Shown here: positions 1 to 41,440 of the stretch, one piece after another
Layout: each line of letters begins with the position of its first letter
How positions within the stretch are numbered: position 1 is the stretch's first letter
NCBI RefSeq assembly: GCF_034387475.1
Contig: NZ_JAXCIL010000001.1
Span: forward strand, 2,108,001-2,172,000
Reading direction: 5' to 3'
DNA: 64,000 nucleotides
Source: Pseudomonas sp. Teo4
GTDB lineage: Bacteria; Pseudomonadota; Gammaproteobacteria; Pseudomonadales; Pseudomonadaceae
Notes under the pieces: model-generated
Seen by the model: only the letters and a program-made list of their open reading frames with translations
The model's database searches: none
Told to the model about the DNA's origin: nothing
Program-made: the position numbers and the translations under genes

Positions 1-1
1 G

Positions 2-19538: not shown

Positions 19539-19595
19539 GGTGCTTTCCAGATGCGGCCAGCACTGCGGGTGCCGACCAGAATGACAAGGGGCGAT

Positions 19596-20510: not shown

Positions 20511-20537
20511 GGGCTACCTCGGTAAACGTTTGGCAGA

Positions 20538-21185: not shown

Positions 21186-21236
21186 GATCGTTCTCCTCAC
21201 ATTGAATTCAGTATAAGGACGAAGGCCAGAGCTTCT

Positions 21237-21245
21237 TTGCCTATT
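21237..21245 (+). promoter_or_regulatory. TTGCCTATT site 1
   Basis: A nonamer TTGCCTATT, 52 bases upstream of the flavodoxin-like gene. With the copy at 21354 it forms a pair in this 233-bp gap. A second pair precedes the hydrolase at 23.1-24.0 kb. Probable half-sites of the AraC paralogues; inference from position and recurrence. Confidence 0.45.
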
Positions 21246-21353
21246 CCAACTGTAGAGTTGCTTGATCCGTTGAGATTTAAGGCAAGCCTCCCCCACACAG
21301 CCCATTAGTCATGGGCTACCCTGATGTCACTGGTGATGGGGAAATAAGACTAT

Positions 21354-21362
21354 TTGCCTATT
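21354..21362 (+). promoter_or_regulatory. TTGCCTATT site 2
   Basis: An identical nonamer 117 bases to the right of site 1, in the same orientation and the same intergenic region. Distant direct sites are common for AraC proteins that loop DNA. Confidence 0.45.
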
Positions 21363-21418
21363 TCAGCAAATTCTCGCAACGCGGCCTGCATGCATCGCAC
21401 GCAGGCCGGCTGCTGGCA

Positions 21419-22357: not shown

Positions 22358-22397
22358 GTGATTCTCCAGAGTGACCGTATCCACGTAGGGATGCGGT

Positions 22398-23033: not shown

Positions 23034-23090
23034 ACGTTGTTCCTGAAATCTGTAAGGTTGGCGACGCAGGATTTGCGCCGCCTGATGGCT

Positions 23091-23990
23091 TCAGAGGCTG
23101 GCCTGGAAGAACGGCGCCAGGTGCTGCAGGGCCTTGTGGACGCCGGCACCGTCGTACAGGTCCATGTGCGCCAGGCCGTCGAGCACCACCAGTTCCTTCT
23201 GCCCCAGCGCCTTGGCATGCAGCTCCTGGCTGTGCCACAGCGAACCTGCTTCGCTGCCGGCGATGACCAGGGTCGGCTGGGTCAACAACTGATCGACCAG
23301 GTCAAAGGCGTCGAACGCCACCCAGGCGCCGAGACCGTTCATCAACATCTTGTTCTGCGCATTGGGATGCTGGGCGCGAGGCGTCAGGTAATAATCCGCT
23401 GCCTCCTGCAGGTCACGGGGCGCACTGGTGTCCCCCAGTTGCGGTACGTAGGGCGCATAGACAGGGGCGGCACCGGCCGCTTCGGCGGTGCGCTGACCAG
23501 CCAGCGCATCGAGCACCGGCAGCAGGTCGTTGATGGAGCCCTTGCCTTCCCAGCCCTTGCGAGTGGCAGCACCGACGTTGACCGCACTGGCAGTTGCCAG
23601 CGCCTTGATGCGACGGTCGACCGAGGCGGCCTTGGCCGCGAAACCGCCACCGGCGCAGATACCCAGCACGCCAATGCGCTGAGCATCGACAAAGCCAAGG
23701 GTTGTCAGATAGTCGACCGCGCTGTAGACATCGGCCACGCGGTTCATCGGTTCATCCAGGAAGTGTGGCTCACCACCGCTGGCGCCTTGGTAGGAGGCGT
23801 CGAAGGCCAGGGTCACGAACCCCTGCTCTGCCAGCAACCGTGCGTAGGTGCCGGCAGTCTGCTCCTTGACCCCACCACCGGGATGAACCGTGATGATCGC
23901 GGGGTACTGTTTGCTCTCGACAAAGGCAGGCGGCAGGTAAAGGTTGCCGGCCATCACGATGTTGCGGTTGTTGAACTGGACGTTCTGCAT
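23091..23990 (-). CDS. Alpha/beta hydrolase, dienelactone-hydrolase-like (paralogue of 21419-22357)
   Basis: A 299-residue paralogue of the hydrolase at 21.4 kb. It shows L-Y-L-P-P-A-F-V-E-S-K-Q-Y-P-A-I-I, the cysteine elbow G-V-L-G-I-C-A-G-G (Cys112) and the late histidine in L-A-H-M-D-L-Y-D. The start at 23990 (M-Q-N-V-Q-F) matches the paralogue's start; the frame extends to 24182 without homology. It leads a leftward trio (hydrolase, NAD-binding protein, hydrolase), downstream of two TTGCCTAWT sites and an AraC gene. Confidence 0.88.
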   Translation of the reverse strand: MQNVQFNNRNIVMAGNLYLPPAFVESKQYPAIITVHPGGGVKEQTAGTYARLLAEQGFVTLAFDASYQGASGGEPHFLDEPMNRVADVYSAVDYLTTLGFVDAQRIGVLGICAGGGFAAKAASVDRRIKALATASAVNVGAATRKGWEGKGSINDLLPVLDALAGQRTAEAAGAAPVYAPYVPQLGDTSAPRDLQEAADYYLTPRAQHPNAQNKMLMNGLGAWVAFDAFDLVDQLLTQPTLVIAGSEAGSLWHSQELHAKALGQKELVVLDGLAHMDLYDGAGVHKALQHLAPFFQASL

Positions 23991-24135
23991 GGTGTTGCCT
24001 CCGGGTACGCAGCGCGCCGAAGCAAGTGGCGCGAATGCTGGGTTGCGGAGGGCGAGGTGCTTGCGCCTCGTTTGGCGCGTGCTGCTTGCCTGCCCTTCGA
24101 TGGAGACAAGTATAGGAAGGGGGGTATTGCAGTTT

Positions 24136-24144
24136 TTGCCTAAT
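24136..24144 (+). promoter_or_regulatory. TTGCCTAAT site 3
   Basis: A one-base variant of TTGCCTATT, 146 bases upstream of the hydrolase start at 23990. The 306-bp gap 23991-24296 holds no gene; this site and site 4 are its only recognisable elements. Confidence 0.42.
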
Positions 24145-24278
24145 CTGACTCCTTGCTTGCACGTTTCAAGGAGAATGCACAATCAGTTCAACTTTGCGGA
24201 TTCAGGCAGAACCTTTGCTTTTACTGGCCTTGCGGTTATGCAAATTGCTGTTAAGCCAATAGAGCGGACTCTACCAAA

Positions 24279-24287
24279 TTGCCTATT
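24279..24287 (+). promoter_or_regulatory. TTGCCTATT site 4
   Basis: An exact nonamer 143 bases right of site 3, immediately past the end of the AraC gene at 24297. With site 3 it mirrors the pair at 21237/21354. Confidence 0.45.
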
Positions 24288-24296
24288 ACGCAGAGG

Positions 24297-25214
24297 TCAC
24301 GCTTGCTGACGCATACGCCGAACATCCCGCTGAGGCGGTGCACCGAAGGCTCGACTGTACTCGCGGCTGAATTGTGAAGCGCTTTCGTAGCCCACCATTC
24401 CAGCCGCCTGGCCCGCGTCCAGATGCTGGTTGAGCATCAATTGCCGCGCCTCCTGCAACCGCAACTGCTTGTGAAACTGCAAAGGGCTCACACCGGTCAG
24501 CGTGCGGAAATGTTGGCGGAAGGTCGAAGGGCTCATGTGCACCCGCTCGGCCAGATCGTCGATCCGCATCTGCTCTGCCAGGTTCTGCTTCAACCAGGCC
24601 ACCACCTTGGCGATCTGTTGCATCGGAGAACCCGCGGCAACCAGGTGCCGCAACGCCACCCCGTGCTGGCCGACCAGTAGCCTGACGATGATTTCCTGCA
24701 GGACCAACGGGGCGAGATGATCGAACAGCGCTGGCTCATCGAGCAGGCTGAGCAAGCGCTCGAGCGCCCGAGCCACGCCACTGTCGAGTTCGGCGATGAC
24801 GATGGCCTGGTGAGTGCCGGCCTTGGGCGGCGGTGGCAAATCCAGGTCCGAGACCGTTCGCATGACTTGGCTGGGGTCGAGTGTCAGCATCAACCCCAGA
24901 AATGGCTTGGCAACTGAAGCCGACGAGACATGGGAAACCACGGGTTGGTCGATGCTGGTCAACATGCCCTGCCCTGCCTGGTAATGCAGCACGGCCTCCT
25001 GCTGCATCACCTGCTTGCTGCCCTGCGCCACCACGCCCAGCCCCAGGCCATAGATGCACGGCATGGGGTCAGTGGGGGCAGCACGGCGATGCAGGCTCAG
25101 CGACGGTAGACGGGTGGCGAAGTCCCCTGAACTTGGGGCGTGCCGAGCAATCAGAGCGCTCAAACCTGACAAGGCGGATTCGGCGTGGTCGCGGGGTGTC
25201 TCGAGGCGGGTCAT
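24297..25214 (-). CDS. AraC-family regulator with AraC_N-type sensor (paralogue of 19596-20510)
   Basis: A 305-residue regulator with the same architecture as the protein at 19.6 kb: C-I-Y-G-L-G-L-G-V-V-A-Q-G in the sensor domain, then V-H-M-S-P-S-T-F-R-Q-H-F and V-G-Y-E-S-A-S-Q-F-S-R-E-Y in the HTH domain. The ATG at 25214 is preferred over upstream in-frame starts because GGAG lies nine bases before it. It is followed by the hydrolase trio and the second TTGCCTAWT pair, which it may control. Confidence 0.9.
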   Translation of the reverse strand: MTRLETPRDHAESALSGLSALIARHAPSSGDFATRLPSLSLHRRAAPTDPMPCIYGLGLGVVAQGSKQVMQQEAVLHYQAGQGMLTSIDQPVVSHVSSASVAKPFLGLMLTLDPSQVMRTVSDLDLPPPPKAGTHQAIVIAELDSGVARALERLLSLLDEPALFDHLAPLVLQEIIVRLLVGQHGVALRHLVAAGSPMQQIAKVVAWLKQNLAEQMRIDDLAERVHMSPSTFRQHFRTLTGVSPLQFHKQLRLQEARQLMLNQHLDAGQAAGMVGYESASQFSREYSRAFGAPPQRDVRRMRQQA

Positions 25215-25489
25215 GAACTTCTCCATCAGCACTACCGTCATGCTCTGCGCCATGATGAAGCGTTTTGTGCAAATCAACCACTGCTATTGCCAGTAGCTGG
25301 GTGGTACCGCGCAAGGCCAGCTTCCGACGGCTCGACAGACTGTGTAGCATTGGCAAAGGCTGATGCTGCCTGCCGCTCGCACCGATAAGGAATGGTGAAA
25401 GCATATCTGCTCCAAACCCTCTCGCATCGCTCTTGATAGTCGAGGTTTGGCAACGCGAGCACCAGAATGCTTCGACTCCAGGAGGAATG

Positions 25490-28050: not shown

Positions 28051-28287
28051 CTATCTACTCCTTGATAGAACATTATTCTGGCGCACCTGCCCCTCCGGCG
28101 CTGCCCGCCAGCGCCTTGATTTGCGCCTGGATCAAACTCAGAAGCATGGCTGCGTGGAAGTATCAGCCATGCTTAGTTTTTGTCCAAGTCAAACTACCAC
28201 TGCCCTCAAAATCAGTTGTCTCAACGACCAAGTAGTGGGCGATCATCTTAGCGATCAACCAGGCAAAGCGGATGTCCCCCCCGGCGA

Positions 28288-28639
28288 ATGGCGTCCAAGT
28301 CAACGCATCCGGTCAGGCCATTTGTGTACCAACCGAGCAAAGGTGGGCTGTGGATCAACGAACCAAGTGTTACGATCCGCCCCTTCAAAGCAGCGCTCAA
28401 AGCGCTGGACATCCGTGAACGTCGGCAGTACGACACCCGCCACACCTACGCAACCACGTGCCCAATGACTAGGATGAACCGAAGCGTTCATCGCGAACCA
28501 GCTTGGTCATAGCGTTGAGATGTTGCTCTCTACCTACGCGAAATGGATCAGCTCCTCCTCGGACTGGAGAGAGCTGGAGAAGCTGCCGCCCCGAGTCGAA
28601 TTGGCCCAAAATTGGCCCAAAACTGACGATAGGGCCTAA
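28288..28639 (+). pseudogene. Tyrosine recombinase/integrase, 3' remnant (copy 1)
   Basis: Only the C-terminal catalytic part survives. One frame gives P-F-K-A-A-L-K-A-L-D-I-R-E-R-R-Q-Y-D-T-R-H-T-Y-A-T (box II Arg-His); after a frameshift near 28478-28485 another gives N-Q-L-G-H-S-V-E-M-L-L-S-T-Y-A-K-W, with the active-site His and nucleophile Tyr. It ends at a TAA at 28637. The N-terminal half and the first catalytic Arg are missing upstream. The end lies 31 bases before the 29-bp repeat at 28671, the usual place for an integrase next to its att site. It is clearly related to copy 2 at 39.2 kb. Confidence 0.8.
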
Positions 28640-28670
28640 ATACACCTCTGGAACCCCCGCAGGACAAGCA

Positions 28671-28699
28671 CTTGATTTCTACCGCCAACATCACCATGC
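28671..28699 (+). repeat. Putative att site (left copy), matches the 5' end of ybiT
   Basis: The 29 bases match 39853-39881 at 27 positions, with the last 19 (ACCGCCAACATCACCATGC) identical. Read from TTG at 28672 it encodes the same first nine residues as ybiT; both mismatches are at synonymous third positions (ATT/ATC, TCT/TCC). It therefore looks like a copy of a ybiT 5' end left by site-specific integration, not chance. Confidence 0.75.
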
Positions 28700-29039
28700 G
28701 CTACTGCATGGGGTTTAGCGGGTGGGGATGTGTTGATTTTGCTGGGCGAGACACCTCTTACTCCCCCACCAAAACGCATGGGTTGGTTCGCAAATTGGTC
28801 CGGGGCCATTCATTCGGCTCTAATGCCGAACCGGCATAGCTTTGAGATGACGCTTGGGTTTAGGGGGGCGTCGAGGGCCGCTGTCGACCCAAAGCTGCCC
28901 TTCACGAACGGCAGGAATCGGCCAATAGCGGCCATTCCCACGCGACGGCAGGCAATGCATAACTCTCACAGAATGGAGATTGGTCAACCTTTCCTCATCG
29001 CCTAAGGAGACGTTGATCATCCAAGGCCAAGGCCAACGC
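28700..29039. other. Gene-poor stretch after the left att copy
   Basis: I see no credible gene here. It contains a dispersed-repeat copy at about 28873-28945 (CCGCTGTCGACCCAAAGCTG and the following AATCGGCCAATAGCGG), related to copies at 30905 and 35950. Confidence 0.5.
28873..28945 (+). repeat. GGCCGCTRTCGACCC dispersed repeat, copy A
   Basis: The motif GCCGCTGTCGACCCAAAGCT followed by CCCTTC, a GGCA block and CGGCCAATAGCGG recurs at 30905-30968 and, inverted, at about 35950-35985. The copies lie only in gaps of the accessory region. Confidence 0.55.
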
Positions 29040-29501
29040 TTAGTAAGGGGGCGGCGGCGTTTTACTTGCCGGATCCATACCGTAATCAAGAAGAGGGGTG
29101 AGAACTTTGAGAATTTCCGGAGCTGGCATACCTCCATATCGGGCTGAATCGCCTATGCGAGCGGACTCAACCGCGCTTTCCAGATGAACAGAGGATTCCA
29201 ATGCTCCAGCATTCACTGCATTGTAGTCTTCTTGAGCATCAATAATTTTTCTGACCCCTCCTTCTTTTCCTATGATGCTTCTGGCTGCCTTGACCTTGGC
29301 GCAGTACTCGGGGTCTTTCTGCTTATCACTTTTGTCGCAATTGTATTGCAAATATACCTGCGAGAGCTTGGTTGAGATATCAGAAGCGGACGCCACTGCT
29401 TCTGGATTTGCCGTAACCCAGCCAAACGAGCTTTGACTAAATTCAGCGGCATGAGATGAGGTAATTAATACCGCCATCCAAGCAGCAATAGTGGAGCGCA
29501 T
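29040..29501 (-). CDS. Hypothetical exported protein
   Basis: A 153-residue protein with a signal peptide (M-R-S-T-I-A-A-W-M-A-V-L-I-T-S-S-H-A-A). The ATG at 29501 has AGGAG seven bases upstream. The mature part contains two cysteines in an N-C-D-K-S-D-K-Q-K-D-P-E-Y-C spacing, typical of a periplasmic disulphide, and a Pro-rich end. No family was recognised. It is last in a leftward three-gene set with the proteins at 29578 and 29907, which are also membrane or exported, so an envelope role is inferred. Confidence 0.68.
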   Translation of the reverse strand: MRSTIAAWMAVLITSSHAAEFSQSSFGWVTANPEAVASASDISTKLSQVYLQYNCDKSDKQKDPEYCAKVKAARSIIGKEGGVRKIIDAQEDYNAVNAGALESSVHLESAVESARIGDSARYGGMPAPEILKVLTPLLDYGMDPASKTPPPPY

Positions 29502-29577
29502 ATACAATCTCCTATATCAACCTTTACTGGGCTTGACAGATTTCGGGGTGCACAATCGCATCAGCACGACATTTGAG

Positions 29578-29910
29578 CTAGAGGAATATGGGTGGCAGCA
29601 CGATTGGTGCGCCAATTATTAATGTCTGCCTATATATAATAGTTTGATTCCAGTACATTTCTATATAGTAAGGCTCTGGACTGATAGGTATAGCTCTCCA
29701 GCCAAAAACACCATATTCATTTGTGAACGAGGGGGCACTTCTACCGAACAATGGGTGTACCAGAAATACGGTGACACCTGGCACAGGGCCTCTCACTTGA
29801 GATACAAGCTGTCCTTGTACCGGGACCATTGCTTCCGCAGAAGCTATCGCTCCATATGTAAAAATTGTCATTACCCAGAAAAGAAACAAAGCGAGCTTTA
29901 ATTGTCTCAT
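29578..29910 (-). CDS. Exported protein with a carboxypeptidase-regulatory/transthyretin-like domain
   Basis: A 110-residue protein with a signal peptide (L-F-L-F-W-V-M-T-I-F-T-Y-G-A-I-A-S-A-E-A). Then comes a short beta-rich segment V-Q-G-Q-L-V-S-Q-V-R-G-P-V-P-G-V-T-V-F-L and S-F-T-N-E-Y-G-V-F-G-W, the pattern of carboxypeptidase-regulatory (CarboxypepD_reg/TTR) folds. It overlaps the upstream gene by four bases (ATGA), so translation is coupled. The fold assignment is by pattern only. Confidence 0.62.
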   Translation of the reverse strand: MRQLKLALFLFWVMTIFTYGAIASAEAMVPVQGQLVSQVRGPVPGVTVFLVHPLFGRSAPSFTNEYGVFGWRAIPISPEPYYIEMYWNQTIIYRQTLIIGAPIVLPPIFL

Positions 29911-30506
29911 AATGGGGCACCGAATTTACCGACTTTGACATCTGTAATTGGGGGGGGCGTGAAAGGAAGTGGTGAAATTTGCTTCTTCAAATCGGACTCT
30001 GTTACATTGCTGGGCGTCAACTCTATTGCTCCGATTTTTGCTATCAGCCGACCTTCATCTATAATTCTCACAGGAGTAGTTAAAGTTTCATAGCCGGCTG
30101 CTGTTATTTGCACCACCAAGACAGACAGGTCTGGATATACGCGCCCAGCTATCACACCATTGTCACTATCCGCAAGCCCCCAACTTACTGGGCGCACCAC
30201 GACAGAAACCCGACCTTTAAGGTTCTTAATTTCGCCTTCGAACTCTATAGGCTCTAATTCGTTGGGCTTAAGAAAAGCCAGCGATAGCGCAATAAATAGA
30301 AGTCCCACTAAAAAAAACGCGACCCCTGGAACTTGAGTATTAATTCTAAACTGACGCTTCCATTCAATGGTGATCGCATCAGCTGCTGGCGTGGCGGCCA
30401 TTGTTATTGCACCTTTGGCGACCAGCCAGATGCCTCCCAGCACCATAGAAAGACCCGCGATCGCTCCGAGTAGTCCTACAATATCGAAAGTAGTCATACC
30501 AATCAT
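29907..30506 (-). CDS. Two-pass membrane protein with C-terminal soluble domain
   Basis: A 199-residue protein. Two transmembrane segments (G-L-L-G-A-I-A-G-L-S-M-V-L-G-G-I-W-L and V-A-F-F-L-V-G-L-L-F-I-A-L-S-L-A-F) are followed by about 110 residues of beta-rich sequence (G-R-V-Y-P-D-L-S-V-L-V-V-Q-I, A-A-G-Y-E-T-L-T-T-P-V) that suggests an Ig-like or PEGA-like fold. It leads the three-gene set ending at 29040. Base composition is AT-richer than the flanking core genes, consistent with transfer. Function unknown. Confidence 0.65.
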   Translation of the reverse strand: MIGMTTFDIVGLLGAIAGLSMVLGGIWLVAKGAITMAATPAADAITIEWKRQFRINTQVPGVAFFLVGLLFIALSLAFLKPNELEPIEFEGEIKNLKGRVSVVVRPVSWGLADSDNGVIAGRVYPDLSVLVVQITAAGYETLTTPVRIIDEGRLIAKIGAIELTPSNVTESDLKKQISPLPFTPPPITDVKVGKFGAPL

Positions 30507-31014
30507 CCCGTCTAGGAAATTCTATTAAAAATAGAAACTAGCCCAAGCGGAACAGCATAATCACGCTACAGATGGCGCCTAAGACCTCCTTTTTTAGGAG
30601 CGTAGACCATAGCTCGAGAAGCGTGCATGCAAATGTACTGTAGTGGTGGGATCAGCACTCAGTTCGTCGATTTACCAGATGAGGTGGCCCTTTGAGGTAT
30701 TGGGGTCGTTTGTTACGAGTATCTGGGTTCACCGCAGGTTTGGCTTCCTTCTGCCCGATTGAGCTTTGGGCGGCCCGGACCTTCAAAAAATCAGAAAAAA
30801 CTGTCTCGCTGAATGGCCGCACCGAAGCAGACGTTCAGACTGAGGGAGCCTGGCCGAAGGCTGCCCGTGAAGACCGACCGCAGCGGGTCGATAGCGGCCC
30901 TCCACGACCGGCCGCTATCGACCCATAGCTGCCCTTGGCGTAAGGCAGCAAACGGCCATAAGCGGTCCTTCTGGAAGGGCAGCTTTTGCCTTGAATTCAA
31001 GCTACGGGTCTCGA
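30507..31014. other. 508-bp intergenic region with repeats
   Basis: No credible gene. The right half holds the dispersed repeat and a perfect inverted repeat (30885-30924). Nothing is recognised in 30507-30880. Confidence 0.5.
30885..30968 (+). repeat. 15-bp perfect inverted repeat joined to dispersed repeat copy B
   Basis: GGGTCGATAGCGGCC at 30885-30899 and its complement GGCCGCTATCGACCC at 30910-30924, with a ten-base loop. The right arm continues into ATAGCTGCCCTT and a GGCCATAAGCGG block, the same order as copy A at 28873. The hairpin follows the end of the Shedu gene (which ends at 31015, leftward) and may help terminate it. Confidence 0.6.
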
Positions 31015-32678
31015 TTATCCCGCAAGCCAGAGCGGCAAAAGGTCAACCACTTCTGGAGCCGCAGCATCCTCAAAAGACTTAAAGTCAAAGTTTTGGCACA
31101 TTAAACTGAGCTCGTTCAAGCTAAACCTCTGCCGAATTTTCAGCATTACCTCGTTCATATTCACACCATTTTCGTCCTGAGTGCGCAAATTCCAACGGGC
31201 CAGTTCCGTGCTTTCTTCGTGTTCGGCAGACTCTACGAGGCGGTGATCTTTTATCAAGGATAGCGAGTATCGTGCGGGAGAGAGCCTTCCAGAAAGAAAC
31301 CTTCCTGCCAGCATGTAAGGATTCACACTGCAAAAATCTTCTGATATATCAGCCATGTAGATTAATGGCAGATAGATTCCTCGCATAAAGTCTGACAAAC
31401 TAGCAATCACCATTAACCAATTCGTTATAAATTTATACGTTGCAACATCCCTTAACTTGGCAGTATCTCCCAATGCCTGCAAATTCCCGGGAAGGCAATG
31501 TTGCACAACGAAGCGCAAAACTGCTCGCCTTGCCAGCGCATCTACTTCGAAATTCTTACTATTATACTCCGTCTCCTGTACAGGATACGGCATCATTATA
31601 GAGGACCTGCCTTCTACCAAAGAAACCTGGCTGTAGTGCACATCGCAATACAGTCTCATCTCAAATTCCTTTCGGCTATTGCCCTCCTCCCAAAACTCTG
31701 TTTCCTTCACATCATAGCGATGGAGTAAAAATCCTCCATTAAATGATTGGAAGCTTTGTAATATTCGATTCTGGCAATTTTGCCATTCGCAGCAGTTCAT
31801 GGATCGACGAAAAACCTCCATCAACTTGTTTGCTCTGTACATGCTAAAATAGAATCCGTGACGCCCCATGAGTTGTACCCGCCACGGGTCGCCCTTGCAT
31901 TTAGCTCCGTTCTGCCAATGCAACAACTGCTCCTTGGCCTCAGGGGAAAGCTTAAGATTTTTATAAGAGTCAGCATCAATACGAAGGATGCTTGGCGTAC
32001 AGTTCTCCAGTAGCTGAGCGTGGCTCACAGAAAGACTATTCACTACAAATCCATCACCGGCTTTTGATAGAATATTTTTAGTACCGCTGCTATAGGGAAG
32101 AGCGGCGATAACATCTTCGTAGGTCCAGATTTTTATATTCCGATGGTGAGCGAAGTTATTTAGCTCTGCTTTATACAACGGACCGGCAGGCAAAGCACCC
32201 GAGATGATGAGCATGTAATCAATTTGCGGAACGGTTTCAGGCAAGTCTTCGGGAAGCAGGTTTTTCAGAAACTCTAAAAATCTGACCTTAGCCCCGCCAT
32301 CGCGCAAGTATATTTGCCACCTTTCGACTTGATGCACGGCTGAAATAAAGTCGCTATGGAATTTATCAGGCTTGTTTTTTTGGAAGATCTTCCGAACTGA
32401 ATTTTCAAGTTCGATCAGGGTTATTTTAATCGCCCCGAGGAAACCGACACGTACACAAAATCGGTAATTGCTCGATGATTGATAGGAAGTTTCGAGATCA
32501 CAACATTGCAGAATACTCCGCCCGAAAGCACGTCTGGCGTGGGTATCAGGCTTGAATTTTGCGCCATGAACTTTTGAATTGCATGTTCATTTGCCTTCGC
32601 GCCTGAATCATTGTGTGCATTCCCCTCGTACAATATCTCGCGAAATTTTTTGATTAGCTCATTATTGGCTTTGTGCAT
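31015..32678 (-). pseudogene. Shedu-family (DUF4263) defence nuclease, split by a one-base frameshift
   Basis: Two frames belong together. Bases 32678-32421 encode N-E-H-A-I-Q-K-F-M-A-Q-N-S-S-L-I-P and I-T-D-F-V-Y-V-S; bases up to 32337 and on to 31015 encode the rest. If one base is restored in the C-run at 32433-32436 (a G-run on the coding strand), the reading becomes S-S-G-A-I-K-I-T-L-I-E-L-E-N then H-Q-V-E-R-W, about 554 residues in all. This is the DUF4263 pattern: D73, then E90-x-E92 of a PD-(D/E)xK nuclease, with Glu where many nucleases have Lys, followed by the Q-V-x-x-W helix. Shedu proteins are single-gene anti-phage nucleases. The long C-terminal part (about 350 residues) was not recognised. 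The frameshift may be a sequencing error. Confidence 0.68.
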
Positions 32679-32696
32679 ATGTGGAGGCTCGAATGA

Positions 32697-32885
32697 TTAG
32701 GAAACACTGGATAAAGCGTGCACACCCGTTACTCCCTCGTGAAGCCGCAAGGTATACAGGAGCTTTTGCCAAGATTTCGAACACTCAGCATTTTGTGTGG
32801 CGAAGTAGTTAACCTTCATGAACGTAGAAAAGACTTTGCATGCATTCTCTCTGGGAGATAGTGACCGATCGCCATAAATACCCAA
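32697..32885 (-). CDS. Doubtful small reading frame between STAND and Shedu genes
   Basis: A 62-residue frame from TTG at 32885, in the same frame as the Shedu N-terminus and separated from it by a TAA at 32697. No ribosome-binding site is clear and no family is recognised. It could be a decayed small gene or leader. An overlapping 28-codon frame starts at the ATG just right of it. Kept at low confidence because it fills the 225-base gap between two defence-type genes. Confidence 0.22.
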   Translation of the reverse strand: MGIYGDRSLSPRENACKVFSTFMKVNYFATQNAECSKSWQKLLYTLRLHEGVTGVHALSSVS

Positions 32886-32903
32886 TCAAATCCATATACC
32901 GGA

Positions 32904-35540
32904 TTAAGTGTCCTTGAATTTATGTATGAAGTGGCGTTCAATTTGATCAGCCTCTTGCCACCCCTGAGTTTTCATCGAATTAATTGCTTCGCGGATCGGT
33001 TTAATCGTTTCAATATCGCCTACGATAATGGCGGCGGTAACTGTCTTCATCAGCTTTCGTGGGCTATCCGCGCTTTCAAAAGTTGAAACAATCATCTTAC
33101 CTAACTCCGCTCTGGTGACTGCATCGTGCTCAGGGGCAATAAGCTCAGAGACCCTTCGCACTAAATCCTTTTGGTTTGAATCCCAGGCATCTGCTCTCCG
33201 AAGGACGTTTATGACTGTGCGGATTATTTTGAGCGATAGCTGGGATAACTTCATACGCCGAGCAGCTGATATGACGACATTGAGAATTGTTATCGAAGGG
33301 TGTTCTAAATCGATATATGCCTCAATCATGGGTTCTAAACGTAATGTGGCCGCCCTCTCCGTAGCGCTGACTCCAAGCTGCAATACCGCGAGAGTTTCGT
33401 CAGCCGGGAAGTTGTGCTTCATCACCCAAGATGCAGTTTGTTCAATAACTACAAGCTGTTGCGCTGGCGAACCCATGTCTTGTACTCGATACACAAATCT
33501 TCGCCGACCAGGAGCATTCGGCTCGCGTTCGAAGAATTCGAGCATGCGTGGGTAGAGCTCCTCATAATCTTCACGTCGCCTGAAGCTCAATGCCAAACCA
33601 ACGTCAACACTATCAATGACACGGTCCGCTTTTGCCGCAGCAAGAAACTTTTGCTCAAGCGCAGGTTGCCCGAGTGACAGGAGCATTTTTGCCAAGCGAT
33701 GAGCGTCTGAGAATGACGCATGGTCAAACAGTTTCTGGATGCCATCCGCCAGATTTTTTCGTTTTGAGTTCACCTCTTCGATTAGGCCGTCGTCAGCTAG
33801 AACATCTCTCAGTAAACGCACCACAAACCGTCGCTCTGCTACCATCTCCGGATCGCAGATGTCACAAAATTTGATGGCGCGATCAACAATACTCAAATGC
33901 TCATTTTCGAGGATTGCCTGCGCGACTAGGGAATGGCCAACCTTCAGGCGAGAGACCCCGTTTTTAGTTTTTTGCAATGACACCAAACCAAAAAAACTTT
34001 CGTCTTTCCAGAACGCTATCCCATTAGGTCGAATGCGTTCGAACAGCGACAGCGGAGCCGATTGGTCATAGCTACCCGGAACGCACAGATCTAAGAAATC
34101 ATGGAATGCCGCTTTGGTACGTAAAGGCCTAAGAACATTGGCGGCAAACTCGTTCAACGATCCTCCCTGTAGCGTCAGCGATAACGCTAGAAGTTGCCCA
34201 TGCTCCATGAAGCGCGCGATTTGACCGGTTCCCACCTGCGCCGCAGGCTCTCGATCAGTACTGATAAGGTCACGCAGCTCTTCAACAAGCTCAGTTGACA
34301 GCGGCCCGAGGCGCACCGGGTGGATTGCAAGCATGGTCATTTCCGATTTCTGGGACACAGCCACAGGTCGGCTCGTTCCAAGAACACACAGGCCGGGTCT
34401 GATATGTCGCTCAAGAGCCTCAACAAAATCGGAATGTCGCCATACGTCATCGACTATCAGGAGCAGCGGTTTGCTGGAGAGCATCAGCAAACTCAAAACC
34501 GCCTTCCAGCTCGCATCATCAACTTCTCCGGGTACAACCACCTCTAACACAAGGTGACTACCTGCTTGATGAGCATCCCATGCAATACGGCGGACCATAG
34601 CGCTTTTGCCGGTGCCAGAGTTGCCCTCCACGACAACCATCCCGCCCGAGGCGCGGATATCGGCTAAGGCTCGGACTACTTCCGGAACCTCTGACCTCGA
34701 CACGTCTAGACCGTTTGCTACTGCAGCCCATAAGCTCTGAACTGCACCGTGAAGAAATGCAGTTCGCATCGACCTCGTCATGACGAGAGACCGTTTGGTT
34801 GGAAGTAGTCGGCAAGCAGCCCCATCCTTTCCAGGATGTCCCTCGGGCAGGCCTACGAGGTTCTCGACGACGTCCGAAACTTGAAAGCTTGCTCTCGGCA
34901 CGAATGCTGCCTGTAACCTTGTGATACTCGACCGTACATGCTCTGGCGGCACACCAAATCTCACGAGGTTCCAAGACGCTTGGGCAGTAAGGTCTGCGAT
35001 CGCCTCCTCATGGAGAAGAATCTCGAAAGTCGCATTTCCCAAGACATTTCGGAGGCATTCCAGCACCTGATCCTCGTCCAGGCCTTCTCGATACTTTTCT
35101 GAAATCAGTGGTGCGATTGCCTCCGCATGGTTCTGGATGAAGACTCTTCGCAAAATCTGAAAAGCACTCTCCTCGTAAGGCGCACTCGTGCAAACAAGAC
35201 GAAAACAAGGGAAATTAGCGCCAAGACCCTCTCGTGCCGTAACGGTGATCATGTCCCGTGCAAAACCAGCAATGACATCTTTGAGCTTTGAGTAGCTGAA
35301 ACTGCCTTGCTGGTGATCTTTTGCTTGGATTAAGAGCTCACGATTCCCGGCAAATTTGAGATCGACGTCCTGAGCACCTTCATACCGCAGCTCCACAAGC
35401 TCCCTTTCTCCCGTTAGTAGCCAAGTAAGCCTAACCAGCGCGTAGGCCTTCTGGAATGAAAACCCTTTCTCGGCAATAGCGCCCCCCGTCCGAGGTTGGG
35501 TATTAAGATCGTTGCCATCCACAGACCACGCTGAACCCAT
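32904..35540 (-). CDS. STAND NTPase with N-terminal Cap4/DUF4297-like nuclease domain (Avs-like)
   Basis: An 878-residue three-part protein. Residues 19-110 match the dsDNA-nuclease domain of Cap4/DUF4297: G19-G, F-S-F-Q30, E54, D58-V-D60-L and Q72-A-K74, a complete PD-(D/E)xK-type set. Residues 300-400 hold a P-loop NTPase: Walker A G306-N-S-G-T-G-K-S313, Walker B L-L-L-I-V-D-D-V-W (364-367) and L-G-T-S-R, the NB-ARC/STAND signature. Residues 480-878 are all-helical and look like a repeat sensor. This architecture is that of Avs-type antiviral NTPases but shorter than the well-known Avs proteins. The start has AGGA seven bases upstream. It is leftward, followed by the Shedu gene. Confidence 0.8.
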   Translation of the reverse strand: MGSAWSVDGNDLNTQPRTGGAIAEKGFSFQKAYALVRLTWLLTGERELVELRYEGAQDVDLKFAGNRELLIQAKDHQQGSFSYSKLKDVIAGFARDMITVTAREGLGANFPCFRLVCTSAPYEESAFQILRRVFIQNHAEAIAPLISEKYREGLDEDQVLECLRNVLGNATFEILLHEEAIADLTAQASWNLVRFGVPPEHVRSSITRLQAAFVPRASFQVSDVVENLVGLPEGHPGKDGAACRLLPTKRSLVMTRSMRTAFLHGAVQSLWAAVANGLDVSRSEVPEVVRALADIRASGGMVVVEGNSGTGKSAMVRRIAWDAHQAGSHLVLEVVVPGEVDDASWKAVLSLLMLSSKPLLLIVDDVWRHSDFVEALERHIRPGLCVLGTSRPVAVSQKSEMTMLAIHPVRLGPLSTELVEELRDLISTDREPAAQVGTGQIARFMEHGQLLALSLTLQGGSLNEFAANVLRPLRTKAAFHDFLDLCVPGSYDQSAPLSLFERIRPNGIAFWKDESFFGLVSLQKTKNGVSRLKVGHSLVAQAILENEHLSIVDRAIKFCDICDPEMVAERRFVVRLLRDVLADDGLIEEVNSKRKNLADGIQKLFDHASFSDAHRLAKMLLSLGQPALEQKFLAAAKADRVIDSVDVGLALSFRRREDYEELYPRMLEFFEREPNAPGRRRFVYRVQDMGSPAQQLVVIEQTASWVMKHNFPADETLAVLQLGVSATERAATLRLEPMIEAYIDLEHPSITILNVVISAARRMKLSQLSLKIIRTVINVLRRADAWDSNQKDLVRRVSELIAPEHDAVTRAELGKMIVSTFESADSPRKLMKTVTAAIIVGDIETIKPIREAINSMKTQGWQEADQIERHFIHKFKDT

Positions 35541-35753
35541 GCTTTGTTCCTAAGGATTTCTACAAATTTAAAGTTGTCACCGGCCAAGCCGGTGACTCGC
35601 CTGAGTGCGGATAGTCATACAGAAATTGGGCACCGGTGCCACATTTACTGGCTCAGGCTAAGCGTATCATTTCCGTAGTACACCAGCACAAATCAGCTAC
35701 GAAATTACAACGCCACCTGAGGCCAGGTCACCACTACATAGGGAAGGTTGAAT

Positions 35754-35885
35754 ATGAACACCAGCGTAGAAATGCCAATAGAGACCGTTTTGTCAGAAAG
35801 CGACTCGGATCGGATCGAAATGTTACCCACTTCCTACCTCGACCAAATACTTGATCGAGCTCAGGCTCACGCTACACGGCATTGA
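35754..35885 (+). CDS. Possible 43-residue acidic protein
   Basis: ATG at 35754 preceded by GGGAAGG, stop TGA at 35883. The product starts M-N-T-S-V-E-M-P-I-E-T-V-L-S-E and is acidic, ending in a short helix (Y-L-D-Q-I-L-D-R-A-Q-A-H). A good ribosome-binding site is its only support; no family was recognised. It is divergent from the STAND-nuclease gene. Confidence 0.35.
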   Translation: MNTSVEMPIETVLSESDSDRIEMLPTSYLDQILDRAQAHATRH

Positions 35886-35949
35886 GCTTGGCCCTGAGAG
35901 AACGACTCGATGCGTCAGCTAGCTGACCAATAGCTGACCTCAGCGAATG

Positions 35950-35985
35950 ACAGCTATGGGTCGAAAGTGGCCGTTCGCCAGTGAC
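35950..35985 (-). repeat. Dispersed repeat, inverted copy C
   Basis: On the minus strand it reads CGGCCACTTTCGACCCATAG and continues into CTGTCATTCGC, matching copies A and B. It lies just beyond the end of the 430-residue gene. Confidence 0.5.
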
Positions 35986-35997
35986 CACTACCGATAT

Positions 35998-37290
35998 TCA
36001 GCGAACTGGAACGACGAGCGCTCGTGTATCAGGATCGGCATCGAATGCTGCCTCTACGAGTAACCAACTTGGCGCAAGCTTCGTGTCGATCATGGCTTTT
36101 ACGGCCCGTTTACGACAAGTCGAACAGGGTGAGCATTCATAAACATACAGAAGACAATCAAGCGACTCGTTGACAGGGTTCGCATCACAGAACCGCAGAA
36201 GTTGCCTAACGACACGATGCAGTTCTTCATTATCCTCAAGCCGTGGCAGGTATTGCACGAAGGTTGCGAAGTCGCCCTCAGCGGAATTATTCACCAACAA
36301 CGCAACTCCGTTGGCGAAATCGCCATCTGCTATCAGTCGCTCCGCTGTTACCCGCAATTGTGGATGGCTGATCGCGGCGAAGGCTGTAACGGCTGCCAGT
36401 CTCAGCGGCTTGTCAGGTTGGTCAATCCATCTGAGCAGTCGTCGTTCAAATCGCGGAACGCCTGTTTTCGCAAAGCACTTGAATAGCTTCTTGGCATGCT
36501 CAGGCTGCTCCACGCTCATCAACGCCATGAAGATTGCCTCGCGTTGATCGCTGCTGGCTTGCGCGCCCCATCCGCGAAACCAGTGACATGGATCTCGTGG
36601 TTTGTTGCGAAGGTGCGTCAGGATATCGTCGGCGGTAAAGGCTGATAGTGAAAAGTCGGTGTTGCGTCCGGCGAGACCATCACGTGAAGTGCAAACCTCT
36701 GCAAGATAGCGCGAGACATCAGCATCGGAGGTGGCGGCACGTTCTAGCAGGGCAAGCCCTTGTTCAGCGCCTGGGGAAGCAAAGCATCGTGAATATAATG
36801 TGTCATCGACCCAGAAATCGGTATCGGCTCGCAACCATCGACCCAGTTGCCTGGCGACATGAATCAAACCGTTCACGCCATCAAGGGCAACAATATCGTC
36901 AGCAGCGATGACATCGGCTGTGTCCGCCGCACGCGCAAGAGACGCGTACAACAGTTTCCTGGCATCATCCATGCCCGCAGTAGCAAGCAGTTTCAGTATG
37001 CCACTACGCTGATTGAGGTCGAATAGGTCCTCGTGTGATGGCGCCAGCCCTTCAGCCTTGATTGCCTCAAAAATCTCAGAATGCATCTGCGCAGTCTCAA
37101 TGATCGAGAAGAGCCACGGCGTGCGCTTGGCTTCGGCCTGCGGATCATGAACCTGACAGAACAGGCATGCTCCAATAATCAGGTCTTCAAGCCCGGCGGC
37201 ACCATGGAGCAGTATCTGTTGCAGTGCCCGGCCATGGCCTGCTCGGAGTGCGGCAGCGAAAGCGGTGCGGGTGATAGGCTCTCTGAGCAT
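35998..37290 (-). CDS. 430-residue helical-repeat (HEAT-like) protein
   Basis: An all-helical protein without signal peptide or membrane segments. Repeated two-helix units such as P-L-R-L-A-A-V-T-A-F-A-A-I-S-H-P-Q-L-R-V-T-A-E-R and N-E-E-L-H-R-V-V-R-Q-L-L resemble HEAT repeats. A cysteine cluster, Y-E-C-S-P-C-S-T-C, lies near residue 390. No enzyme motif was found. The gene is leftward, upstream of the STAND nuclease and Shedu genes. A partner or sensor role in a defence locus is possible, but it is separated from them by 457 bases and the family is not recognised. Confidence 0.68.
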   Translation of the reverse strand: MLREPITRTAFAAALRAGHGRALQQILLHGAAGLEDLIIGACLFCQVHDPQAEAKRTPWLFSIIETAQMHSEIFEAIKAEGLAPSHEDLFDLNQRSGILKLLATAGMDDARKLLYASLARAADTADVIAADDIVALDGVNGLIHVARQLGRWLRADTDFWVDDTLYSRCFASPGAEQGLALLERAATSDADVSRYLAEVCTSRDGLAGRNTDFSLSAFTADDILTHLRNKPRDPCHWFRGWGAQASSDQREAIFMALMSVEQPEHAKKLFKCFAKTGVPRFERRLLRWIDQPDKPLRLAAVTAFAAISHPQLRVTAERLIADGDFANGVALLVNNSAEGDFATFVQYLPRLEDNEELHRVVRQLLRFCDANPVNESLDCLLYVYECSPCSTCRKRAVKAMIDTKLAPSWLLVEAAFDADPDTRALVVPVR

Positions 37291-37814
37291 GAGATATCTC
37301 GTGATAAGGCTCGAATAGTTTAGTGCGTTGAGGTCTCGGCGGACAGGACCCAGTCAGGAATCAGCGGGCCAACTCAACCCCAACCTTCATGCACGCCTAG
37401 AACTGCTGCTGTGAACACGCTCAAAAGGCCAGAATCAGCCTTCATCCTTCTGCCGGCCATGGCCAAATGCAGAGCCGTCGACGCGAAGCAGGCAACGCGG
37501 TGGATGGCACCGGCTGTGCCGGTGTTCGGGGGTAAACCCGCTCCCACAAAGATTGCTTTTGGGCTCAATGACAGCTTCGAGTTGAAAGCTGCCACTCGTG
37601 ACCGGCTGATATCGACCCAGAGCGGACGTTCAACTGCATTATGTTTGTGTAATGCCTGAAATGCTCACCATGACATCGCCTGCGCCTGTCAGAGCGAGCG
37701 CCGCCCGCGCGGCGCATCGCGGATAAATCCGCTCCATTTGTTGCAACGTGCCGAACCTGTCAGGCCATAGTTGCCTGCCTTGGCGCATGGCGTGAGTCAT
37801 GCGGGGCGTCGGCA
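37291..37814. other. 524-bp intergenic region with a repeat
   Basis: No credible gene. The region holds dispersed-repeat copy 2 (about 37482-37552) and a short partial match to the other repeat family at about 37604-37635 (GATATCGACCCAGAGCGGAC). Confidence 0.5.
37482..37552 (+). repeat. Dispersed intergenic repeat, copy 2
   Basis: CGCGAAGCAGGCAACGCGG, then TGGATGGCACCGGC, a GCCGGTG hairpin arm and GGTAAACCCGCTCCCACA. Same order as the copy at 26964. Confidence 0.62.
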
Positions 37815-38228
37815 GTGCCCATCGTGAAATTGAGCCATGCACACCAGGCTGACAACCATGGCCTATCAGGCATCTCGCAGTTGGCCGATATCCGCAAGAT
37901 GGCCAGGACCATGACCTGCCAAGAGGTGCAGGAAGCCACCGGCTACCCCAGGCAGGCGCCGTTCCGAGCCGGTCGCGAGGGCAATTTCGTGTTCCGCCTC
38001 CCCGAGAGTAAGAACACTGGGGTGGATAAGCGAGAAGTTCAGCGCCAGATCCAGCGGAACGAAAAGCGCATCAAGGAGCTGAAGCTTGTCGAGCGCATCT
38101 GAGCCCTGCGGGATGAGGGCCAGCATCGCGCCTAGGTGGCCAAGCAGCTTGAGGTCAATTACGGAACACTGGTGAAGATCATCGAACGCAACAACATTGA
38201 TTTCCCGAAGGTCCGCGCCCGCAAATGA
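37815..38228 (+). pseudogene. Decayed phage-type HTH regulator
   Basis: One frame runs from 37815 to TGA at 38226 with two in-frame stops (TGA 38100, TAG 38133). It encodes M-T-C-Q-E-V-Q-E-A-T-G-Y near the start, a lysine-rich coiled region (Q-R-Q-I-Q-R-N-E-K-R-I-K-E-L) and a HTH-like end (V-A-K-Q-L-E-V-N-Y-G-T-L-V-K-I-I). This looks like a prophage DNA-binding protein inactivated by stops. A further short frame, M-K-R-I-T-A-R-V, overlaps its stop at 38225-38314. Confidence 0.5.
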
Positions 38229-38330
38229 AGCGTATCACCGCCCGCGTTCGGCACGGCCGGCGCCAGCAATGCATCAATTTACCACCCAGCAGCTTGGGAG
38301 GTATCGGCCATGGCTGAGCAGAAGACCTGA

Positions 38331-38896
38331 GCCGCGAAGCACTCCACGGACTATCGGCTGCAGGCGGTCCAAGCGCTTGGATATCAGGCTGCGCCGCACA
38401 TCGTGGACTGCGCAGACCTGGGCGTGCCGCAGCACCGGGTGCGCCTGTTCATGGTGCTGACACGCAGCAAAGCACCGCTGATGCTGCAGCTACCCCAAGA
38501 GCGTCATGTCCCAGCCGCCAGCTTCCTCGACTTCGACGCCGGTCGCTGGTCGCAGATCGAGAAGCCAGGCCGGACCCAGTCCACGCTTGACCGGGTGCGC
38601 AACGGCCGCCAGCGCTTCGGCGATCGGTTCATCATGCCCTACGACGGCAAGGGTTCCGGCACCACCGGCCGTGACATCAGCCGACCTATCGGCACCATCA
38701 CCACCCTGGACCGCTGGGCACTGGTCGACGGTGACCGCATGCGAATGCTCAGCGCCAACGAGGCCCTGGCCGCCATGTATTACCCGCCGACACCCTGCGC
38801 CCGGACAACCACCGGCTGAGCATGCAAATGGCTGGCAACGCAGTAACGCCGCTGGCCGGCCAGAGGGTGATTGAAGCGCTGCTGAAGGCGGCTTAA
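38331..38896 (+). pseudogene. C5 cytosine DNA methyltransferase, C-terminal remnant
   Basis: The frame encodes the late motifs of Dcm-type enzymes: motif VIII D-L-G-V-P-Q-H-R-V-R-L-F, motif IX R-P-I-G-T-I-T-T-L-D-R-W and, after a one-base shift near 38776-38785, motif X M-A-G-N-A-V-T-P and G-Q-R-V-I-E-A-L-L. The shift can be explained by loss of one T from TTT in ATGTATTTACCC. Motifs I-VI, including the catalytic Pro-Cys, are absent, so it cannot be active. Orphan methyltransferases of this type are common in prophages, which fits its neighbours. Confidence 0.75.
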
Positions 38897-38906
38897 TCAC
38901 CCACAC

Positions 38907-39122
38907 CTATTGCGCCGAAGCATCGGCATCGTGTGAATTTGGTTTGATTTCCGTATACCAGTGGGGCGGCTCACCTACCCCCCAGATCACGATATTGATC
39001 TTCTGGCAGTGCTCACACTGGAACTCAAACTCAGGCCTTGGGTCATCGGGGTCGAAGTCCATTGCCTCCCCACAGCCCGCACAGCCCGACATTAGTGTCT
39101 CTTTATTGTCACGCTCGCTCAT
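38907..39122 (-). CDS. Small zinc-ribbon-like protein
   Basis: A 71-residue protein with two CxxC pairs (G-C-A-G-C-G and F-Q-C-E-H-C-Q-K) that would bind zinc. The ATG at 39122 is chosen for the GAGGTG upstream and because sequence before it (to 39254) looks non-coding. It lies between the methyltransferase remnant and the integrase remnant, on the opposite strand. Function unknown; probably phage or island cargo. Confidence 0.6.
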   Translation of the reverse strand: MSERDNKETLMSGCAGCGEAMDFDPDDPRPEFEFQCEHCQKINIVIWGVGEPPHWYTEIKPNSHDADASAQ

Positions 39123-39226
39123 AACGCGCACCTCTCTGCAATACGTTAAGCGTAGCCAACTCCAACGCCACAGAATCACGCCAGCCCGACGAGGTATCCC
39201 CATGCCCACAGAAAAAAATCGATTAG

Positions 39227-39833
39227 CCTGCATTTCACAAACGAAGCGATACAAGCCAGACCTACGCTGCCTTTTTCGAGTTCATGTTCTTCACTGGCCT
39301 TCGGCTATCCGAAGGCCTTGCGCTGCGCTGGGATGCGGTCGATACGACCCAAAAGACCGCTCATGTGCGGCAGACGATTGCATTGGGGGTGGTTGAGGAG
39401 AGGACGAAGACCGGGAGGGCTCGATTTGTGCTGCTCAACGACAGGGCGCTGTATGCCCTGGAGTTCGCCAAGCAGTGCGCGGAACGCCGCAGGCAGGGCA
39501 AAGGACAATTCACTGAATCGCCGTTCGTCTTCCCGCCCGGGAAGAATGGGGAGCACGTGAAACAGACGTCGGACCTGCACCACCAGTGGCGCCCGATCCT
39601 CAAGGGCCTGGGGATCCGATACCGCCCCCCCGTATAACTGCCGTCACACCTATGCGACAATATGCTCAATGTCTGGTCTCAACCCCGCATTTATCGCCCA
39701 ACAGCTCGGGCATAGCGTGCAGATGCTCTTATCGACTTATGCGCGCTGGATTAACTCGTCCAACGACTGGCAGGAGCTGGAAAAGCTCCAAATTGGTCCG
39801 AAATTGGTCCGTAGCTGCGACGAAGCCACGTAA
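39227..39833 (+). pseudogene. Tyrosine recombinase/integrase, 3' remnant (copy 2)
   Basis: The catalytic domain is nearly whole: Y-A-A-F-F-E-F-M-F-F-T-G-L-R-L-S-E with box I Arg, C-R-H-T-Y-A-T (box II Arg), Q-L-G-H-S-V-Q-M-L-L-S-T-Y-A-R-W with the nucleophile Tyr, stop TAA at 39831. A seven-C run at 39625-39631 shifts the frame; six Cs would restore it. The N-terminal core-binding half is missing, with a stop at 39224, so it is inactive even if the C-run is an error. It ends 20 bases before the right att copy in ybiT. Confidence 0.82.
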
Positions 39834-39852
39834 GTTATTGATAGGTAAGCCT

Positions 39853-39881
39853 CTTGATCTCCACCGCCAACATCACCATGC
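39853..39881 (+). repeat. Putative att site (right copy) overlapping the ybiT start
   Basis: The 29 bases that match 28671-28699 at 27 positions. The repeat contains the TTG start and first nine codons of ybiT, so integration here rebuilds the coding sequence but replaces everything upstream, including promoter and leader. Confidence 0.75.
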
Positions 39882-41440
39882 AATTCGGCTCCAAGCCGCT
39901 GTTCGAAAACGTCTCGGTCAAATTCAACAACGGCAACCGCTACGGCCTGATCGGCGCCAATGGCTGCGGCAAGTCCACCTTCATGAAAATCCTCGGCAGC
40001 GACCTGGAGCCTTCCGGTGGCCAGGTGATGCTCGAGCCGAACACCCGCCTGGGTAAACTGCGCCAGGACCAGTTCGCCTACGAAGAATTCACCGTCATCG
40101 ACACGGTGATCATGGGCCACGGCCAGCTGTGGAAGGTCAAAGCCGAGCGCGATCGTATCTACTCGCTGCCGGAAATGACCGAGGAAGACGGCATGGCCGT
40201 CGCCGAGCTGGAAACCGAATTCGCCGAAATGGACGGCTACACCGCCGAATCCCGCGCCGGTGAACTGCTGCTGGGCCTGGGTATTCCGCTGGAACAGCAC
40301 TTCGGGCCGATGAGCGAAGTGGCGCCGGGCTGGAAACTGCGTGTGCTGCTGGCACAGGCGCTGTTCTCGGACCCGGACGTGCTGCTGCTCGACGAACCAA
40401 CCAACCACCTGGACATCAACACCATCCGCTGGCTGGAAACCATTCTCACCGCGCGTAACAGCACCATGGTGATCATTTCCCACGACCGGCACTTCCTGAA
40501 CAGTGTCTGCACCCACATGGCCGACCTGGACTACGGTGAGCTGCGCGTCTTCCCAGGCAACTACGACGAGTACATGACCGCCGCCACCCAGGCGCGTGAG
40601 CAGCTGCTGTCGGACAACGCCAAGAAGAAAGCCCAGATCGCCGAGCTGCAGACCTTCGTCAGCCGCTTCTCGGCCAACGCCTCCAAGGCCAAGCAGGCCA
40701 CCTCGCGCGCCAAGCAGATCGACAAGATCCAGCTGGCCGAGGTCAAGCCGTCGAGCCGTGTCAGCCCGTTCATCCGCTTCGAGCAGACCAAGAAGCTGCA
40801 CCGCCAGGCCGTGACCGTCGAGAAAATGGCCAAGGCTTTCGACGACAAGGTGCTGTTCAAGGACTTCAGCTTCACCATCGAAGCTGGCGAGCGTGTGGCG
40901 ATCATCGGCCCCAACGGTATCGGCAAGACCACCTTGCTGCGCACCCTGGTCGGTGAAATGACCCCGGACAAGGGTGATGTGAAGTGGACCGACAGCGCTG
41001 AAGTGGGCTACTACGCCCAGGACCACGCCCACGACTTCGAAGACGACGTGAGCCTGTTCGACTGGATGGGCCAATGGACCACCGGCGAGCAGGTGATCCG
41101 CGGCACCTTGGGCCGCATGCTGTTCTCCAACGACGAGATCCTCAAGTCGGTGAAGGTGATTTCCGGTGGTGAACAGGGCCGTATGCTGTTCGGCAAGCTG
41201 ATTCTGCAGAAGCCGAACGTGCTGGTGATGGACGAACCGACCAACCACCTGGACATGGAGTCGATCGAGGCGTTGAACCTGGCGCTGGAGAACTACCCGG
41301 GCACGCTGCTGTTCGTCAGCCACGACCGTGAGTTCGTATCGTCCCTGGCCACCCGCATCATCGAGCTGACGCCCGAGGGTGTGGTGGACTTCAGCGGCAC
41401 CTACGACGATTACCTGCGTAGCCAGGGCGTCGTGGTCTGA
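39854..41440 (+). CDS. ybiT: ABC-F family ATPase, YbiT-type
   Basis: A 528-residue soluble protein with two ABC domains and no transmembrane part. It has Walker [10 protein letters not shown] near residue 36 and G-P-N-G-I-G-K-T-T near residue 353. Both domains carry the Walker B segment L-D-E-P-T-N-H-L-D / M-D-E-P-T-N-H-L-D, and a charged ABC-F linker lies between them. The whole chain follows E. coli YbiT closely. ABC-F proteins act on ribosomes. The start is TTG at 39854, giving [13 protein letters not shown] lies eight bases upstream. The TTG lies within the putative att site, so the present upstream region comes from the integrated element. Confidence 0.94.

Follow-up and report, generated by a model that had tools for sequence, protein, structure and literature searches.

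The 5' coding end of ybiT, a gene for an ATPase of the ABC-F family, most probably serves as the bacterial attachment site (attB) for a family of elements that carry tyrosine integrases. Many of these are temperate phages, and each element would bring its own leader and start codon to the gene on entry. The locus lies in a stretch of 64,000 nucleotides from Pseudomonas sp. Teo4 (G000:C1:2108001-2172000; hereafter the window), where an element with a type-B integrase sits beside the relic of an older one with a type-A integrase. This reading is carried by an empty site in a relative, stacked insertions in four genomes, matching arms at both ends of the elements, phage attachment sites (attP) in isolated phages and the distribution of integrases and leaders across the genus.

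Paired ybiT starts, an empty site and stacked insertions

The features at issue, all on the forward strand save for the inner element, which has no strand, are as follows (attL and attR, left and right attachment sites).

28282..28630, +: type-A tyrosine integrase 3' remnant, right end of the older (outer) element (tblastn, residues 287-402 of the intact L017 integrase)
28640..28671, +: relic type-A leader with AGGA, once 5' of ybiT (same sequence directly 5' of ybiT in L003, L005, L009 and others)
28672..28699, +: relic ybiT codons 1-9, attL core of the inner element (same as the live ybiT start in P. taiwanensis)
28700..39852: inner integrative element, decayed (flanks, once joined, match P. 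taiwanensis)
28783..28804, +: left-end arm-like repeats TTGGTTCGCAA and ATTGGTCCGGG (presumed arms)
39134..39830, +: type-B tyrosine integrase remnant, lacking the N-terminal part, frame break near 39630 (tblastn, intact L004/L006/L082 integrases)
39790..39811, +: arm-like repeats of the right end, AAATTGGTCCG in two copies, in agreement with the left end (presumed arms)
39827..39853, +: type-B leader with AGGT, now 5' of ybiT
39854..39881, +: attR core, live ybiT codons 1-9
39854..41440, +: ybiT, encoding an ATPase of the ABC-F family, with a TTG start (NCBIfam NF011646 at 1017 bits, cut-off 762)

An earlier note on this DNA had described two copies of a 29-mer, and these are indeed found at 28671-28699 and 39853-39881, identical at 27 of 29 positions, with the last 19 bases exact and both mismatches synonymous at third codon positions. 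With up to three mismatches allowed, nothing else in the window matches (0.00 expected, 100 shuffles) and the two copies are unique genome-wide, a reversed control pattern giving 0 matches. The two rightward integrase remnants of the same note were located by tblastn at 28282-28630 and 39134-39830, and its assignment of the right copy to the start of ybiT is borne out by the NF011646 match. The ybiT product (39854-41440) also exceeds the cut-off of NCBIfam NF000355 (ribosomal protection-like ABC-F; 399.9 against 380), NF011646 being the best match.

Regarding the left copy, taken previously for a fossil ybiT 5' end, the comparison came from the ybiT loci of named genomes (best 80 of 592), the closest of which by ybiT protein, among the matches listed, are P. 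taiwanensis and Pseudomonas sp. SID14000 (98%). On sequence grounds this copy is a former ybiT start, because in P. taiwanensis (L003) the same integrase remnant directly abuts ybiT and leads into it through the same TTGATTTCTACC, i.e. the identical junction is live there. Once joined, window 28337-28699 and 39882-40500 give a 982-bp alignment with this locus (92.6%, a single 1-nt gap), which provides the empty site predicted in the earlier note, where a single 29-mer connects the left flank to ybiT. The inner element, 11,182 bp from core to core, has a G+C content of 52.1% against 63-64% in its flanks and, as is the rule for tyrosine-integrase elements, shows an integrase at one end (here a remnant), direct repeats and a single-copy empty site. 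The intact relatives of the window integrases carry Phage_integrase, Arm-DNA-bind_2 and Phage_int_M domains (Pfam).

The left remnant is of type A, its last 53 residues being 92% identical to an intact integrase, and the inner element is of type B; these two lineages are about 55% identical and share one site, so the newer insertion is stacked on the older relic. SID14000 has the same type-A remnant (92-93% alike in the window, P. taiwanensis and SID14000) and relic core, but the insertion that follows them is another one, which measures 9,634 bp from core to core and has an intact type-B integrase at its ybiT end; the left-end arms of this insertion read GGTATC against GGTCC in the window, so the two insertions look independent. 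In genome G004, two identical 28-bp cores enclose 54.6 kb and a type-B remnant lies to their left; genome G024 is a tandem of two insertions with both integrases full-length, in the order type-B integrase, core, 44.1-kb type-A element and ybiT. Stacking is thus seen in four genomes, with types A and B in both orders, and the intact integrases that the earlier note suggested looking for beside ybiT do exist (SID14000, G024 and the genus sample below). The G004 and G024 units are prophages, since among ten chosen open reading frames (ORFs) of each there are tape-measure, head-morphogenesis, portal and tail genes in the former and tail, tape-measure, portal and major-head genes in the latter. Seven ORFs of the SID14000 unit include an AraC regulator and a TonB receptor, with no phage-like Pfam match. 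On its minus strand, the G024 type-A prophage has a further integrase-like gene (L114:3413-4714; PHROG 1).

That the copy at 28671 might stem from local duplication, or from homologous recombination between related integrase ends, rather than from site-specific integration has in its favor that the window integrases are decayed and that related integrase ends occur in tandem. The core-to-core layout with an intact integrase nevertheless recurs independently in SID14000, G004 and G024, and isolated phages carry the matching attP, which makes such an origin extremely improbable.

Crossover, arms and phage attachment sites

In three of the four tandems (window, SID14000 and G024), the two cores differ and the differing bases go with the left flank, so the exchange lies to their right, in ACCGCYAACATCACCATGC; the cores of G004 are identical and uninformative in this respect. 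After ATGC, the element and host sequences diverge at once (window and G024) or after three to four further shared bases (G004 and SID14000). With the crossover in ACCGCYAACATCACCATGC, each element therefore supplies the ybiT leader, the Shine-Dalgarno sequence and all else as far as the TTG start, the latter included. Besides, the arms at both element ends agree in the window, G004, SID14000, G024 and phage JBD44.

In the proposed model, the attP would lie just 3' of the integrase gene of the element, flanked by 11-bp arm-like repeats that presumably bind the integrase, and would carry its own ybiT codons 1-9 after a Shine-Dalgarno sequence. Recombination in ACCGCYAACATCACCATGC would turn the previous leader and start into a relic at the distal end (attL) and place the leader, Shine-Dalgarno sequence and TTG of the element before ybiT (attR), the first nine amino acids remaining unchanged; the leader may also bring a promoter. 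A later element would enter at the same place and push the end of the earlier one outwards, the window representing a type-B element on a type-A relic. Once the integrase and the left end have decayed, the last nucleotides of the element would persist because they have become the ybiT translation start, presumably kept by selection.

The isolated phages JBD44 and YMC/01/01/P52 carry a ybiT-type attP. In JBD44, whose integrase is about 57% identical to the type-B integrase, it comprises the integrase, a leader with AGGA, TTGATATCTACAGCTAACATCACCATGC and the left end with matching arms, and this stretch is covered at 80% or more by 11 phage records, some of which are duplicates. We take PA14_39110 to correspond to PA1964. 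The latter is described as a YbiT-like ABC-F, and a published 58.4-kb prophage lies between it and PA1965; the JBD44 insertion in PA14 was mapped between PA14_39110 and PA14_39130 (PMC9112912). The section of that report dealing with the insertion gives the flanking locus tags alone, with neither an attB inside an ABC-F gene nor the rebuilding of the latter, and an attachment site at the ybiT start could explain the published prophages at this position.

In IMG/VR, the 28-bp core occurs in 108 stretches, and a relative of the integrase is encoded in 157, of which 80 were kept. Among the 108, a full-length integrase is followed by ybiT in 27 and by other sequence in 10; other sequence also follows a partial integrase in 41 and no integrase match in 14, the remaining 16 being too short on one side or having a partial integrase with ybiT. 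The upstream sequence is too short for a whole integrase in 21 of the 41 with a partial one; in the 20 with room, the arms differ across the core in 15 of the 17 that could be typed, the pattern that a new element next to an old relic should give. For the 10 stretches with a full-length integrase then other sequence, the arms match in seven, as expected for an attP or a same-type tandem, and differ in three.

Leader classes across Pseudomonas

The genus was surveyed with an even sample of 99 genomes, 98 of which have ybiT at threshold, and the upstream stretch was examined in 97 of these (all but G100), three stretches being shorter than 1.5 kb. Full-length integrases of the ybiT-site family number 14, in 13 genomes: six abut ybiT (in six of the 99 genomes), one lies at the relic core of the G024 tandem, four before folE and three before an amidotransferase gene. 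Integrase sequence is present upstream of ybiT at 48 of the 97 loci and ends within 250 nt of the gene at 47 of these; it does so at 29 of the best 80 of the 592 named loci. The expectation in the earlier note that use of an ABC-F 5' coding end would be unusual has therefore to be abandoned, as it is common at ybiT in Pseudomonas and has precedents at dusA and prfC.

Leaders were classed by motif into A (6 loci), B (60), C (21), D (1), other (1) and native-type (8). Integrase matches accompany 6/6 type-A, 41/60 type-B and 1/1 type-D loci, and 0/21 type-C, 0/1 other and 0/8 native-type loci. Types A, B and D together amount to 67 of 97 loci, and to 89 with type C and the other one, the latter step being made by leader resemblance. 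All 89 non-native loci start with TTG; native-type loci start with GTG (six) or TTG (two). AGG stands 8 nt 5' of the start in 6/6 type-A, 59/60 type-B, 21/21 type-C, 0/1 type-D and 2/8 native-type leaders. The information content of type B reaches 1.44 and 1.30 bits in the last two 10-nt blocks against 0.09 in the upstream control, values that are inflated by relatedness. Direct repeats resembling the arms, with a period of 11 and at least 8/10 identity, occur 40-110 nt 5' of the start in 40 of the 88 A-D leaders, against 0-6 of 88 at each other period from 8 to 15, 14 of 680 control stretches taken at loci of types A, B and C, and none of the eight native loci. Judging from this resemblance, in most species sampled ybiT looks as if it begins with the leftover of an element, and every leader of type A, B, C or D would presumably derive from one.

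Several points weigh against an attachment site at the ybiT start as described above. The case is built on sequence comparison throughout, no excision or integration event having been observed, and no promoter was identified. Since AGG is included in the definitions of A, B and C, the Shine-Dalgarno spacing cannot count as independent evidence, and the D locus is without AGG at the usual position. Integrase matches are absent from all 21 type-C loci and from 19 of the 60 type-B loci, so the origin of these leaders rests on the leader sequence, together with arm-like repeats at 9 of the 21 type-C loci. No core was found near the integrase in four of the six phage records examined (MD8, PseuP_224, PS-1 and phi1, the integrase of phi1 lying at the end of its record). 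As for type C, its leader and core are followed by non-ybiT sequence in eight IMG/VR stretches (L200, L208, L233, L237, L241, L251, L257 and L281), which suggests that a type-C ybiT start can still serve as attB.

The type-C loci without integrase would also suit another explanation, in which the leaders are ancestral host sequence captured into phage attP, normal divergence of the promoter region of ybiT accounts for their variety and insertions leave the leader unreplaced. Leader types common to many species may indeed be partly inherited, and the first capture of ybiT into an attP must derive from a host. However, leader type tracks integrase type and the synonymous core bases, phage attP also carries the leader, and the leader changes across stacked insertions, a change that the P. 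taiwanensis/window pair shows for one species pair. Likewise, native-type leaders (TACAAT, with GTG in 6/8) differ in look and have no integrase match, and TACAAT- or TACACT-type leaders are found at 16 of the best 80 of 592 named loci, including Marinobacter and Halomonas. An unreplaced leader is accordingly considered quite improbable.

Replacement of the leader by the incoming element defines an attachment site for phages and islands in a conserved ABC-F gene, with exact ends for mapping Pseudomonas islands, and offers a natural series of leader swaps within a single core gene, where one can measure how translation signals supplied by phages affect an ATPase that associates with the ribosome. 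More speculatively, and perhaps somewhat against the odds, it could amount to a lasting takeover: a core factor associated with the ribosome would, across most of the genus, have a phage relic as its translation start, ybiT expression would be set by the last element, and the swap would be irreversible after decay of the element because the native leader is separated from the gene. The integrase family found at ybiT, folE and the amidotransferase gene would then be specialized in taking control of conserved genes at their starts, possibly with regulation of these genes as long as the phage is resident.

Known systems, other targets and the rest of the window

Insertions at this position were already known, without the explanation by the ybiT start, as was the targeting of 5' ends with gene restoration at dusA and prfC; a description of ybiT as an integration site was not found in the parts of the literature consulted. 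According to the sections concerned, dusA islands and prophages use one integration site, within the 5' coding end of a gene that is conserved, supply a new gene 5' end, have imperfect direct repeats and an attP beside the integrase, and were shown to bring a new promoter for dusA (PMC4482086; IMEVchUSA3, PMC8409611). The ybiT elements share the 5'-end site, the element-supplied 5' end, the direct repeats and the position of attP, but differ in the target gene and in that the N-terminus of dusA changes whereas the first nine residues of ybiT do not. With ybiT as target, the window element was rejected as a dusA-specific island, and the one dusA integrase compared (BcepIL02 gp04, a carrier named in PMC4482086) is not meaningfully similar to the ybiT integrase (E-value of 0.007 for the best local match). 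The integrative and conjugative element SXT likewise provides a new promoter and N-terminus at the 5' end of a translation-factor gene, prfC (cited in PMC8409611); it shares the 5'-end targeting but is conjugative. Pmo_Y-Int_1 (28-bp attB, P. putida S12; truncated and inactive in the assay), which might be of the ybiT type, was set aside, no gene being named in the relevant part of the source (PMC12884075).

Full-length relatives of the integrase end a few tens of bases before the folE start in G079, G033, G091 and G102 (L389-L392), and others lie just 5' of an N-acetylglutaminylglutamine amidotransferase gene in G046, G109 and the genome of the window itself (L393, G000:C1:37512-38660, outside the window), one folE and one amidotransferase product having been identified by NCBIfam. 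No tRNA gene was found as target in the window or in the seven stretches at these two genes. In a tree of 26 integrases, several forks of which are weakly supported, ybiT users do not form one group: folE users are interspersed with them, and the lineages of type A and of JBD44 arise at separate points; integrase targets were thus probably switched more than once, and the folE and amidotransferase sites suggest one family specialized in gene starts.

The remaining ORFs of the inner element are listed below; a Pfam scan of its eight ORFs revealed no head, tail or packaging gene.

29040..30506, -: three ORFs (29040-29507, 29578-29910 and 29907-30506) without Pfam match
31015..32337, -: ORF weakly similar to SduA (DUF4263; PADLOC E-value 7.9e-7), without Pfam match
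32904..35540, -: defense-like ORF (Pfam, PADLOC) with an nSTAND NTPase domain and a possible Cap4/LmuA-like nuclease domain
35998..37290, -: ORF without Pfam or PADLOC match
38403..38819, +: DNA methyltransferase fragment (PADLOC DrmMII, E-value 1.8e-11)

The ORF at 32904-35540 matches Pfam nSTAND_NTPase5 at 47 bits (cut-off 34), with PADLOC E-values of 1e-7 to 1e-5, and Cap4_nuclease at 25.7 bits, slightly below the cut-off of 26.2.

Concerning the two tandem elements claimed earlier, the inner one is upheld by the empty site and the right end of the outer one is certain; the left end of the latter, already missed in the earlier note, again escaped a search for a third core left of 28288. At up to 8 mismatches per 28 bp over 82 kb back to the acetoacetyl-CoA synthetase gene, this search returned only one match, at window position -21691 with 8 mismatches, which was dismissed as chance level. 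Scanning the genome of the window for the conserved left-end motif solely recovered the left end of the inner element, and a 26-bp left-end-like stretch of SID14000 at -18814, without core, was too weak to be used. The acetoacetyl-CoA synthetase gene and ybiT lie on one contig less than 100 kb apart in 8 of 18 genomes checked (range 5.3 to 92.7 kb), the distance being 92.7 kb in the genome of the window and 5.4 kb in L024, which has a native leader. Homology with P. taiwanensis extends as far as a point some 42 kb to the left of the first window position. Beyond this limit, the matches of window 18401-24100 in eight relatives are all diverged or short (838 bp at 73% for the best), and window 1-5000 has matches in only six of the eight, none of them longer than 65 bp. 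The outer insertion may thus be large.

Window 1-25250, which separates the outer remnant from the conserved left flank, has a G+C content of about 64% and is apparently strain-specific. An RND-type pump-like gene pair was recognized by eye from the sequence at 14011-18308, and, judging from the translations, 19596-25277 holds two similar-looking adjacent modules, each with an AraC-like regulator ORF and a hydrolase-like ORF.

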